Positions 57,072 through 60,664 of a DNA stretch of 64,000 bases are shown here, piece after piece (position 1 is the stretch's first letter; each line of letters starts with the position of its first letter). The stretch is from Opitutaceae bacterium EW11 (lineage in GTDB: Bacteria; Verrucomicrobiota; Verrucomicrobiia; Opitutales; Opitutaceae). Below the pieces are notes generated by a model. It was not told the DNA's origin. It did no database searches and saw only the letters and a list, made by a program, of their open reading frames with translations. The position numbers were made by a program, and so were the translations under genes. Location of the stretch: assembly GCA_003054665.1 (NCBI GenBank), contig QAYY01000013.1, forward strand, positions 496,001-560,000. The letters run 5' to 3'.

Positions 57072-57469
57072 AGCGGATATCGTGTTGTTGCGGGGTAACT
57101 CTGACGGTTAGGCAGGGCGAAATCTAAGAAGGAAAGGGAGAACGCGTCGGTTCGCGAAATCTCGTGCAGGGGTTTGCCGAGAACGTGCGCCAGCCAAACA
57201 ATACGCAGCACAAAAAAGTGAGCGGCGGAGAGTGCAAGCTTCACGTTCGTTTTTTTCTGCGCGCACCGCGAACGGTCGACGCGGGAAGAATTTCCCAAAG
57301 AAAAAAATGTGCCGGCAAAAGCCATCGTGCGTGGAGAAATTTCCGCATGGCAAACGCAACGCCCGGCGTCGTCATGCGAACGTCACAGGAAGGCTCCGAA
57401 ATCGTGCCGGTCAAACATTCACCGCATCAACGCGCGTGTTTTTTTTCTCGCACCACTAACGCCAATTTC
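57072..57469. other. AT-richer intergenic region upstream of nrdJ
   Basis: 398 bases with several A or T tracts (near 57251-57257, 57301-57307, 57440-57448), less GC-rich than its surroundings. It must hold the nrdJ promoter and the 3' end of the ywiC transcript. I see no riboswitch core, no clear hairpin terminator, and no gene with recognisable features. Confidence 0.45.
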
Positions 57470-58273
57470 TCACGCGAAAATTCTCGCGAGGAAAACGATC
57501 CACGCGAGCCCGACGATCGTCTCTAGGATGCCGAAAGTTTTCGCCGACGGCGCGCGTTTTGAGAATGACAAATAGAGCGCGGCGCGCATCGCGAGCGCTC
57601 CCGTGACGAAGGCCGCGCCCGAGGGGACGAGAGAGAAAAACGCGAGCGCTCCCACGAGGGAAATCGCGAGAATCTGCAGAGCGACAGCGAGCGAAACGGA
57701 GCCGCGTTCCTCACGCCGCAAAACGGCGCGCACGACCGCGATTGTGGGCAGCGAACGCGCGAGCCCCACTGCGCCGAGCGCGAGCGCACTAGGGAGTTTC
57801 CACCAGCCCGCGAGAGCGATCGCGACGAGCGGAAGCGAGCAGGTCGCCGCGCCGACAAATTCCGACGCGAGCGATCGCACGCGGCCCGTGCGATCGCACC
57901 ACGCAAAATACGCCGCGCCCGGAAGAGCGGCCGCGAACGGCGCCAGTACGCGCAGCCCTCCGAGCAGCCCCGCGGCGAGGAGGAAAGCGGAGCCGAGCGC
58001 GGCGAAAACGACCGCCGCCCGCCGCGCCGTCCGACGCACCAGCGGATCTTTCGAGGCAAGCCGGCCCCAGCCGAGTTTCGCCGGCTTTCTCAGGAAAAAC
58101 CCAGCGGCCACCGCCAGCGCGAGAGCGAAGCCGGGCGCACTCGGAGCGACGAGGAGCCCGAGCGCCACGGGCTCGAAGACAAGCGCCCAGCTGCCGTGCT
58201 CGGCGGGAAGAAGTAACCGCCTGGCGGATACGGAACGGGCGGCCGGGCGGGAGACGGAGGCTGCTACCGGCAC
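57470..58273 (-). CDS. YwiC-like multipass membrane protein
   Basis: 267 residues from GTG 58273, six bases after the DUF2249 stop. It begins with a basic stretch, then the hallmark LLLPAEHGSWALVFEPVALGLLV, and contains about seven or eight hydrophobic helices. B. subtilis ywiC lies in the fnr/nar locus, and YwiC-like proteins often occur in denitrifiers or facultative anaerobes. Here it is third in a cupin-DUF2249-YwiC operon behind an FNR-type box. Role unknown, possibly in NO or nitrite handling. Confidence 0.85.
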   Translation of the reverse strand: MPVAASVSRPAARSVSARRLLLPAEHGSWALVFEPVALGLLVAPSAPGFALALAVAAGFFLRKPAKLGWGRLASKDPLVRRTARRAAVVFAALGSAFLLAAGLLGGLRVLAPFAAALPGAAYFAWCDRTGRVRSLASEFVGAATCSLPLVAIALAGWWKLPSALALGAVGLARSLPTIAVVRAVLRREERGSVSLAVALQILAISLVGALAFFSLVPSGAAFVTGALAMRAALYLSFSKRAPSAKTFGILETIVGLAWIVFLARIFA

Positions 58274-58278
58274 GGCAC

Positions 58279-58518
58279 TTAGGGCGCGACGCGTTCGAAC
58301 ACGGTTCGCCAGCTGCCGTCGGCCTGCCATTCGGTCGTCGCGGCGAAACCCTCGGTTTGGAGCATCTGGATCAGCGGCGAAGGGCGGAACGGCGAGAGAA
58401 GGATCAAACCTTCGTCCGGGCGAAGGGCGCTGATCTCGGTGCGGATCTGCAGAAACGGCTCTATGCCACGCTCGAGCAGGGGGCGGACGTCGAGCGTGCG
58501 ATACGACGTAGGTTTCAT
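58279..58518 (-). CDS. DUF2249 domain protein
   Basis: 79 residues. YRTLDVRPLLERGIEPFLQI, then LRPDEGLILLSPFRPSPLIQMLQTEGF, matches DUF2249, which in larger proteins is joined to hemerythrin or occurs beside nitrite and NO reductase genes. The usual histidine-rich redox site is not visible in this short version. Its ATG overlaps the cupin stop (ATGA, 58515-58518), giving translational coupling. Confidence 0.85.
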   Translation of the reverse strand: MKPTSYRTLDVRPLLERGIEPFLQIRTEISALRPDEGLILLSPFRPSPLIQMLQTEGFAATTEWQADGSWRTVFERVAP

Positions 58519-58883
58519 GATCTTGTTGCCGCGGACCCGGCCGGTTCGTCGCGGGCGAGGGTGAGGAGCATCGAAAACGGCTCGGTCGCACGCACGGCGT
58601 GGGGTGTGGAGGGCGGCATGTAGAGCAAATCGCCGGCTTTCAGCGCGTGCACGACTCCGGAAACGGTGAAATCGCAGCGTCCGCTCAGCATCTGAACGAC
58701 GGCGTGCCGCGTGCTGGCGTGCTCGGTAAGTTCCTGCCCTTCGGCAAACGCAAAAAGCGTCATCCGTACGGAGGGCGTCGAGAGAAGCGTCCGGCTCACG
58801 ATGCCGTTGTCGGCAAAGACGGTCTCCTTGGCCAGCGCCGTGACGCTCGCCGCGCCTTGGGAGAAGATAGGGTTTTCAGCCAT
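58515..58883 (-). CDS. Single-domain cupin protein
   Basis: 122 residues. Conserved beta-barrel: HASTRHAVVQMLSGRCDFTVSGVVHALKAGDLLYMPPSTPHAV, with the cupin pattern of a His before motif 1 and P-x-x-x-P-H in motif 2; the HxH of motif 1 is weak, so metal binding may be partial. First gene of the cupin-DUF2249-YwiC operon. Upstream is a near-perfect FNR/DNR palindrome (58917-58930). AGGGG lies only one base before the ATG, which hints at a leaderless transcript. Confidence 0.85.
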   Translation of the reverse strand: MAENPIFSQGAASVTALAKETVFADNGIVSRTLLSTPSVRMTLFAFAEGQELTEHASTRHAVVQMLSGRCDFTVSGVVHALKAGDLLYMPPSTPHAVRATEPFSMLLTLARDEPAGSAATRS

Positions 58884-58889
58884 GCCCCT

Positions 58890-58895
58890 AATCTA
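58890..58895 (-). promoter_or_regulatory. -10-like hexamer for cupin operon
   Basis: TAGATT on the minus strand, 21 bases from the FNR-type box. If the box is centred at -41.5, the predicted transcript start falls about on the cupin ATG and this hexamer lands at the -12/-7 position expected for a class II FNR promoter. Only two of six positions differ from TATAAT. Confidence 0.5.
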
Positions 58896-58916
58896 CGCGC
58901 CGCGCCCTGGCTTGCC

Positions 58917-58930
58917 TTGACGGAGATCAA
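58917..58930. promoter_or_regulatory. FNR/DNR-type binding site
   Basis: TTGACGGAGATCAA, matching the FNR/DNR consensus TTGAT-N4-ATCAA in all but one base (C for T at position 5). It is 34-47 bases upstream of the cupin ATG. On the minus strand it reads CTTGATCTCCGTCAAG, with one extra paired base on each side. Box position, the -10-like hexamer and the operon content (DUF2249, YwiC) agree with anaerobic or NO-responsive control. The regulator is not in the window. Confidence 0.75.
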
Positions 58931-59059
58931 GAAAGCGTCGCGCTTCACCGGGCCGCGCTTTGTCCGATCCGTCCCCCCCCCGACGCAGCGTCGAGCGGCA
59001 GCTCAGGCCGCTCGATGGGGTTCAACGCCCCGAGGCGGCTTGGTCGTTTCGGCTGGCGC

Positions 59060-60664
59060 TCAGGCCTTCGGCTTCGGGCTCTCCGGGAGGCGGCCGTAGA
59101 GTTCGCCGAGCGTCTTCAGGTATGGCGCGGTTTCCCGGTGGAGTCTTGCCAGCTGATCCGGACGGTAGCGCCATTGCCAGTTGCCGACAGGCTTGCCCGG
59201 GGTGTTGAACCGGGCTTCGGAGCCCAGGCTGAGCAGATCCTGCAGAGGGATGACCGCGAGATTGCTGACGGCCATGTACGAGCAGCGGACGAAATCCCAG
59301 CCGATCTCCTGGCCGCCGACGCGCAGATAACGTCGGACGTGGTCGCGTTCGCCCTCGCTCGCCGTCCGGTACCAGCCAAGCGAGGTGTCGTTGTCGTGGG
59401 TTCCCGGGTACACCACGCTGTTTGCCTTCAGGTTGTGCGGGAGGTAGAGGTTGTCCGACTTGCCGCCGAACGCGAACTGCAGGATGGTCATGCCGGGCAG
59501 TCCGGTCTTGAGGCGCAGCACGGTGACGGATGGTTTCAGGTCGCCGAGGTCCTCCGCTATCAGTTTTGCGGTGGGAAGTGCCTTCGCGACGGCGGCGAAA
59601 AACGCCTCCCCGGGGCCTTCCTGCCATTCGCCGGTCTTGGCGGTCGGCGCATCCGCCGGAATCGCCCAGTAGGAGTCGAAGCCGCGGAAATGATCGATGC
59701 GAAGCACGTCGCAGAGCTGAAAGTTCGCCTCGAGACGATCGAGCCACCAGCGATAGCCCGTCGCGGCGTGTTTCGGCCAATCGTAGAGCGGATTGCCCCA
59801 GAGCTGACCGTCGGCCGAAAAATAGTCGGGAGGCACGCCCGCCACGACGAGCGGATGACCGGTATCGGGGTCGAGTTGGAAAAGCTCTGGGTTGGCCCAC
59901 ACATCGGCGCTGTCGCGAGCGACGAAGATCGGCGCATCGCCGATGATCTGCACGCCCAGTTCCTTCGCCTGGGCCCGGACGCGCTGCCATTGACCGGAAA
60001 AGAGGTACTGGAAAAACGCGTGCGCTTCGGCTCGGGTGCGCACGTCCTGGGGAAGCTTCGCCGTCTGCGCGTCGCGGTAGAATCGCAAACCGCGCGGCCA
60101 CTCCCACCAGGGACGACCTTGGTGATGGTCCTTCAGCGCGAGAAACAGGGCAAAGGGAGCGAGCCAGTCCCGGTTGGCCTGTTGGAACGCACGGAAATCG
60201 CCGTACGGGAGCGGCGCGCCCGGCGTTTTGCGGAAGGTCTCGTACGCCTTGAAAAGGATCGGCCATTTCGTCGCGTAGAGCCACCCGAAGTCGACGCGGT
60301 CCTGGGGCAGAGCGCGCAGGGGCTCGAGATCCTCCGGCCGAAGCAATCCGTGGCGTTGCAGCTCCTGCAGGTCGATCAGGTACGGATTTCCGGCGAACGC
60401 GGAGAAACACTGGTACGGAGAGTCGCCATAGCCCGTCGGTCCGAGCGGGCAAACCTGCCAGTACTGAATTCCCGCGTCGTGCAGAAAGCTCAGCCAGTTG
60501 CCCACGACGCTCTCATCCAACGTTCCGATGCCGAATGGGCCCGGAAAGGCTGTCGGGTGAAGCAGCACGCCGGCGGCACGATGGTCCAACCAGCCCACGT
60601 CGGGCGTCTGGGCGCCTGGCGCGGCGGCAACCGAAGTATCAACGGAAGCGGACGAAGTGGCCAT
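59060..60664 (-). CDS. malQ: 4-alpha-glucanotransferase (MalQ)
   Basis: 534 residues. Moves maltosyl/maltodextrin units between glucans. GH77 motifs: IIGDAPIFVARDSADVWANP, RIDHFRGF (nucleophile Asp), IAEDLG (acid/base Glu) and THDNDT. The N-terminus begins with a 20-residue Ser/Ala/Pro-rich tail, then RAAGVLLHPTAFPGPFGIGTLD, normal for the short plant-like or bacterial DPE1 type. ATG at 60664. No glycogen or maltose genes are adjacent. Confidence 0.93.
   Translation of the reverse strand: MATSSASVDTSVAAAPGAQTPDVGWLDHRAAGVLLHPTAFPGPFGIGTLDESVVGNWLSFLHDAGIQYWQVCPLGPTGYGDSPYQCFSAFAGNPYLIDLQELQRHGLLRPEDLEPLRALPQDRVDFGWLYATKWPILFKAYETFRKTPGAPLPYGDFRAFQQANRDWLAPFALFLALKDHHQGRPWWEWPRGLRFYRDAQTAKLPQDVRTRAEAHAFFQYLFSGQWQRVRAQAKELGVQIIGDAPIFVARDSADVWANPELFQLDPDTGHPLVVAGVPPDYFSADGQLWGNPLYDWPKHAATGYRWWLDRLEANFQLCDVLRIDHFRGFDSYWAIPADAPTAKTGEWQEGPGEAFFAAVAKALPTAKLIAEDLGDLKPSVTVLRLKTGLPGMTILQFAFGGKSDNLYLPHNLKANSVVYPGTHDNDTSLGWYRTASEGERDHVRRYLRVGGQEIGWDFVRCSYMAVSNLAVIPLQDLLSLGSEARFNTPGKPVGNWQWRYRPDQLARLHRETAPYLKTLGELYGRLPESPKPKA

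Follow-up and report, generated by a model that had tools for sequence, protein, structure and literature searches.

One of the protein families encoded at the locus analysed here, DUF2249, is presumably identical with COG4309. DNR regulons with the same motif have been described for Proteobacteria, and COG4309 has been tied to nor genes under the control of NnrR, NsrR or DNR (PMC1274295, in the part of its text available). The DNR regulon of Pseudomonas and the beta-proteobacteria, as far as it is set out in that part (PMC1274295), is similar to what we find in its TTGATnnnnATCAA box, its nir, nor and nos targets and its DNR-like CRP/FNR regulator; the window, by which we mean the whole 64-kb stretch of DNA that was analysed, contains a TTGATnnnnATCAA-like box with one mismatch. 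Unlike the proteobacterial regulon, the one described here belongs to another phylum, has a cupin gene and a YwiC gene under the box, and keeps the box locked at -41.5 to the start codon; the string 'verrucomicro' is absent from the text of PMC1274295. According to the accessible parts of two further papers, DUF2249 genes lie near nar, nir, nor and nos genes and are raised under denitrification in H. mediterranei (PMC11218638), and DUF2249 proteins (DrpA/DrpB) are tied to nitrate respiration in Thermus (PMC6282519, in which the word cupin has 0 matches). These Haloferax and Thermus systems, as far as these papers present them, involve other organisms and other regulators than the system considered here.

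Leaderless genes with an upstream CRP/FNR site are reportedly known from studies of CRP in M. tuberculosis and of GlxR and cAMP in C. glutamicum. As in those genes, the transcript is predicted here to start on the AUG, whereas the present case differs in that the distance between activator site and start codon is kept in many genera of one phylum and in that the regulon is one of denitrification. Among titles and the beginnings of abstracts, a scope outside which many subscription papers lie, we found no published account of such a promoter architecture and, within the same scope, no report on the regulation of denitrification in Verrucomicrobiota.

The locus comprises the following features:

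58917..58930, minus strand: DNR/FNR-type box TTGATCTCCGTCAA, its centre 40.5 bases before the A of the cupin ATG, a place kept in orthologues
58890..58895, minus strand: -10 element TAGATT, with A at -11 and T at -7 relative to the ATG
58883, minus strand: predicted transcription start (first base of the cupin ATG), placed by the spacing from the -10 element; the base before it (58884) is C
58515..58883, minus strand: cupin gene, 122 aa (Pfam Cupin_2, 4.6e-11)
58279..58518, minus strand: DUF2249 gene, 79 aa (Pfam PF10006, 1e-12), its start overlapping the cupin stop
57470..58273, minus strand: YwiC-like gene, 267 aa (Pfam PF14256, 9.4e-16), with a GTG start at 58273, 5 bases past the DUF2249 stop

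A sequence-only reading of this DNA had described a box one base from the consensus, a -10 element at 58895-58890, a predicted transcription start on the ATG and a cupin-DUF2249-YwiC operon, and each of these was recovered: the box is seen at 58930-58917 on the minus strand (its plus-strand reading is TTGACGGAGATCAA, one base off TTGATNNNNATCAA), TAGATT stands in the window sequence where it had been placed, its last base at -7 as counted from the A of the ATG (58883-58881), so that the predicted start falls on this codon, and the three genes abut or overlap in the window sequence and match Pfam models. The distance of 41.5 bases given there between box centre and cupin ATG had to be corrected, as we measured 40.5 from the A; with the centre at 58923.5, a value of -41.5 would hold only if +1 were 58882. 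Along the minus strand the order is box, 21 bases, TAGATT, six bases and the ATG of the cupin gene, which is the arrangement of a class II site (box near -41.5, -10 element about 22 bases further on) with a spacer of 21 bases. No promoter came out of a generic sigma-70 scan of 57300-59200, as is expected where an activator site stands in for the -35 element. Histidines H55 and H95 of the cupin are invariant in 16 sequences, and its best matches in PDB are cupins about which little is described; that it binds a metal is a guess.

The comparison of orthologous promoters that the sequence-only reading had proposed revealed that other genera have the box too, with an unchanged distance to the ATG. 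When named genomes were scanned with an alignment of six cupin sequences, 123 loci were obtained, of which the best 80 were used; 76 of these bear titles of Verrucomicrobiota or a group within it, 2 are titled only 'bacterium' and 2 belong to Caldilineaceae and Streptomyces. In these best 80 of 123 loci most boxes share a single position, -41.5 relative to the ATG. Subtraction of 13 loci of the Opitutaceae sample, the 2 outgroup loci and 1 identical row leaves 64 distinct regions outside that sample, some of which may be from Opitutaceae species that the sample does not include. Among these 64 regions (again from the best 80 of 123 loci) the box lies between -44.5 and -38.5 in 56 and exactly at -41.5 in 41, counts that do not represent independent events owing to shared ancestry. 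Neither outgroup locus (Streptomyces, Caldilineaceae) has a box within 250 bases. The window cupin shows up to 65% identity to records of subdivision 3 and other Verrucomicrobia (among the best 80 of 123 loci) and 29-61% identity, over the matched stretches, to its own family sample; this greater nearness to those records than to the family sample makes transfer of the gene possible.

In the family sample of 250 genomes, which includes no other genome of EW11's own genus, a cupin relative is present in 97. We took 80 of the matches, leaving out weaker ones, some that lay near contig ends, and second copies. These cupin genes often stand beside genes for DUF2249, the membrane protein, MIP18, YwiC, nirK-like and DNR-like proteins (tblastn, E <= 1e-4). 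With at most one mismatch the box has 64 matches in the 80 same-family loci (565,712 bases), compared with 0 or 1 match for each of seven scrambled palindromes. Yet only 14 of 81 cupin genes of the Opitutaceae sample, our own included, have it between -44.5 and -38.5; the other 67 do not, in part because DUF2249 or YwiC precedes the cupin gene. When boxes were counted from -60 to -30 with at most one mismatch, they occurred at 2 of the 39 loci with a recognised same-direction gene within 200 bases upstream of the cupin gene and at 8 of the 42 loci that lack one. Where the cupin gene comes first and DUF2249 or the membrane protein follows within 1 kb, 8 of 15 loci have a box.

The register between box, -10 element and start codon is best seen where the box lies at exactly -41.5, as it does in 48 of the 147 distinct regions that were pooled. 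Of these 48, 47 have A at -11, 47 have T at -7 and 46 have C at -1. With +1 on the A of the ATG, A-11 and T-7 would occupy the canonical positions of a -10 element, and their conservation does not reflect mere relatedness, since the spacer has drifted to 35% pairwise identity (positions -34 to -15; 32% for -6 to -2; 42 sequences). At background ATG starts of the same loci, A-11 together with T-7 occurs in 40 of 689, whereas C-1 is found in 332 of 689 and therefore says less. Of 78 boxed cupin promoters (not deduplicated), 2 contain a Shine-Dalgarno core, and by eye none of three such cores was seen in the window promoter; some Verrucomicrobia have been described as scarce in Shine-Dalgarno pairing (PMC10783764, in its accessible part). 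The earlier suggestion of a likely leaderless transcript is strengthened by this locked register, as far as promoter sequences can speak for it. The idea that leaderless transcripts are common throughout these genomes was rejected, as the TANNNT peak at other starts is small and far below that of the cupin set (T at -7 or -8 in 21 of 632, against 0-7, typically 2-3, at single positions elsewhere).

The same spacing recurs in front of other genes. Among 166 non-cupin boxes followed by a coding ATG within 20-160 bases, some of which may precede spurious antisense frames, the commonest distance is 41.5, yet it accounts for only 14; these include nirK, four YwiC genes, one DUF2249 gene (tblastn) and three YgbA_NO genes (Pfam). 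Four control palindromes gave 0, 1, 5 and 3 non-cupin boxes in all. The YgbA_NO genes (Pfam 'Nitrous oxide-stimulated promoter'), which belong to other Verrucomicrobiota, start exactly 41.5 bases past the box centre (L178:6949-7338, L185:4366-4755 and L223:4768-5160, all on the minus strand). At another locus (L088, G225:C9:8288-8377) a single palindromic box lies between divergent cupin and cytochrome c genes, each of which has a -10 element and an ATG spaced for a leaderless or near-leaderless transcript, and G190:C201:14515-14604 resembles this arrangement.

An alternative reading accepts the same class II promoter and regulon and has transcription start a few bases away from the A, which would give a leader of 1-8 bases or the use of another start codon. 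Start sites often scatter by 1-2 bases, and a minority of orthologues have the box at -40.5 or at -42.5 to -44.5; the window box itself, at -40.5, is one base off the commonest spacing. Moreover, the azurin-like/nosZ promoter of the same genome has its ATG 11 bases past the -10 element and is thus of a short-leader type. Across the 250 family genomes, a search for the full geometry in which the ATG comes 5-8 bases past the -10 element gave 100 matches, spread over 64 genomes (control 1), and an equally wide control spacing of 11-14 bases still has 44 matches in 33 genomes (control 1), so that short-leader promoters also occur in the regulon. These counts favour the leaderless geometry, with short leaders occurring beside it. 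For the cupin operon, however, the box most often stands at exactly -41.5, and T-7 and A-11 keep their places with respect to the ATG; as a free leader would let this distance drift, we regard a start off the A as unlikely there.

The rest of the genome places the promoter in a regulatory context. A motif search of the own genome with TTGATNNNNRTCAA, which had likewise been suggested as a check, yielded 15 strand matches representing 11 sites (control 4 strand matches), and according to the reading of open reading frames 7 of the 11 sites lie upstream of genes:

the cupin gene of the window
nirK
the azurin-like gene and nosZ
an operon of DUF2249x2, membrane protein, MIP18 and regulator
L031:4704-4717: box upstream of a DGC-domain gene
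L029:4401-4414: box upstream of a multihaem cytochrome c gene
L027:4668-4681: box upstream of a small gene plus TonB receptor

The other 4 of 11 are situated within genes read as unrelated (topoisomerase, plsX and glycosyltransferase by eye, ExbD-like by Pfam), and the notion that every box in the genome is functional was rejected on these grounds. The nirK gene, which exceeds the TIGR02376 cut-off and encodes a copper nitrite reductase with a fused cytochrome c, has its box exactly 41.5 bases before the ATG, and its register of box, -10 element and ATG is nearly that of the window cupin. About 9 kb from the regulator gene a box precedes the azurin-like gene (Pfam cut-off reached, NCBIfam azurin cut-off missed) and a Sec-type nosZ (over the TIGR04246 cut-off) with nosD and an ABC ATPase gene. 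A further box is located about 2.5 kb upstream of the regulator start, before a double-DUF2249 gene that is followed by genes for a polytopic membrane protein and a MIP18-type protein up to the regulator, i.e. a second DUF2249 operon beside the regulator gene. Judged by position only, the TonB receptor could, as a guess, be a copper importer like NosA. The genome thus encodes NirK and NosZ; an ordinary NorB was not found among its five COX1-family matches (three CtaD-type, two CcoN-like). Two more DUF2249 genes, one of them below the Pfam cut-off, follow an FTR1 iron permease gene (L024:6840-8500), and no TTGAYNNNNRTCAA box was seen near them in a 16-kb stretch.

A profile search of the genome with HTH_Crp_2 gave one match over the curated cut-off, the product of the gene at L022 6878-7633, a protein with a cNMP-binding domain, a Crp-type helix-turn-helix and the recognition helix ETLSR. 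Other CRP-like candidates, a single PF00325 match just over its cut-off and three sub-threshold PF13545 matches, were assigned by eye to other kinds of protein (LacI-, DeoR- and MarR-like, one unrelated). In a comparison with PDB the regulator matches DNR of P. aeruginosa (3dkw) with 1.1e-25 and 94 bits, CRP-named entries with at most 58 bits, FNR-named ones with at most 54 bits and a Crp/Fnr family group with 68-70 bits; two entries named only 'cyclic nucleotide-binding protein' slightly outscore DNR with 95.7 bits. Among named solved proteins the regulator is thus nearest to Pseudomonas DNR, a nearness that refers to pairwise score only, and it reaches no NCBIfam cut-off. Histidine 139 of DNR, named in the accessible part of PMC8510549, aligns with a lysine in the regulator, and sensing of NO by haem therefore has no support from that residue, the single one compared.

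Since FNR and DNR boxes have nearly the same motif (PMC1274295, in the part available), the box could also serve an oxygen-sensing FNR, and the operon would then answer anoxia rather than NO. A cysteine cluster is the mark of FNR, and when the sequence of the regulator, the sole clear CRP/FNR protein found in the genome, was read by eye its cysteines were scattered and no such cluster was seen; among solved proteins it also resembles DNR more closely than FNR. FNR as the regulator was for this reason judged the less likely choice, and we consider it improbable. Whether the genome encodes a CRP/FNR regulator had been asked in the sequence-only reading, and one clear regulator was found; of the label 'FNR/DNR-type' used there the DNR part is the better supported. 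Two of the outcomes that this reading had named as speaking against it, a genome lacking any CRP/FNR-family regulator and loss of the box in close orthologues, were checked, the second in other genera, and both checks came out in its favour.

The membrane protein downstream of DUF2249x2 (451 aa, L022:8126-9481, minus strand) found no match in Pfam or NCBIfam. A homologue at L243:4852-6204, modelled with AlphaFold (mean pLDDT 87.7), has the fold of haem-copper oxidase subunit I, with Z scores of 37.3 for cbb3 and of 35.1 and 32.9 for NO reductases, yet an alignment of 23 sequences reveals no histidine conserved within the presumed haem-ligand helix (327-370). An initial guess that the protein is nnrS was dropped in view of the missing Pfam and NCBIfam matches and the modelled fold of the homologue.

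Taken alone, the window box is at chance level: its pattern with at most one mismatch has 1 match in the 64 kb and at least 1 match in 37 of 100 shuffled windows, and the TTGAYNNNNRTCAA pattern is present in 11 of 100. Unlike the box alone, box, -10 element and ATG taken together are significant, as TTGAYNNNNRTCAAN{19,24}TANNNTN{4,9}ATG has 2 matches in the whole 6.4-Mb genome, the window cupin and nirK, and its control 0. That a one-mismatch palindrome stands by chance before an unrelated cupin gene, for which the frequency of equally good boxes in shuffled windows might speak, is therefore highly improbable and was rejected on orthologue conservation, the register of box, -10 element and ATG being present in 56 of 64 regions outside the Opitutaceae sample (among the best 80 of 123 loci) with a diverged spacer, and the full geometry having nirK as its only other occurrence in the genome.

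From the promoter elements, the geometry and the regulon context described above we infer, with a probability of about 0.85, a class II promoter of DNR type that has its +1 on the A of the start codon and would yield a leaderless mRNA within a denitrification/NO regulon. A dimer of the DNR-like CRP/FNR protein would bind TTGATCTCCGTCAA about 41 bases upstream of +1 and contact RNA polymerase at TAGATT, transcription would start on the A of the cupin AUG, and the product would be a leaderless polycistronic cupin-DUF2249-YwiC mRNA. In relatives across Verrucomicrobiota box and start codon appear locked to each other at about -41.5, with a tolerance of a few bases. The operon would probably be switched on together with nirK and nos during respiration of NO or nitrite, and its products may be accessory or protective proteins.

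These results offer a predicted regulon, a predicted regulator and exact predicted start sites for denitrification in Verrucomicrobiota, and they tie three uncharacterised families, this cupin, DUF2249 and YwiC, to nitrogen-oxide respiration. The distance between activator site and start codon, locked in many genera, represents a clean system for asking why some stress genes are leaderless. More tentatively, part of the Verrucomicrobiota DNR regulon might consist of 'start-codon-locked' promoters at which NO directly yields leaderless mRNAs, leaderlessness perhaps being part of the stress response. If this is true, a rigid module of activator site, -10 element and AUG would have been kept across the phylum and leaderlessness would be no accident; translation of leaderless mRNAs may then have an advantage wherever ordinary initiation suffers from NO or anoxia.
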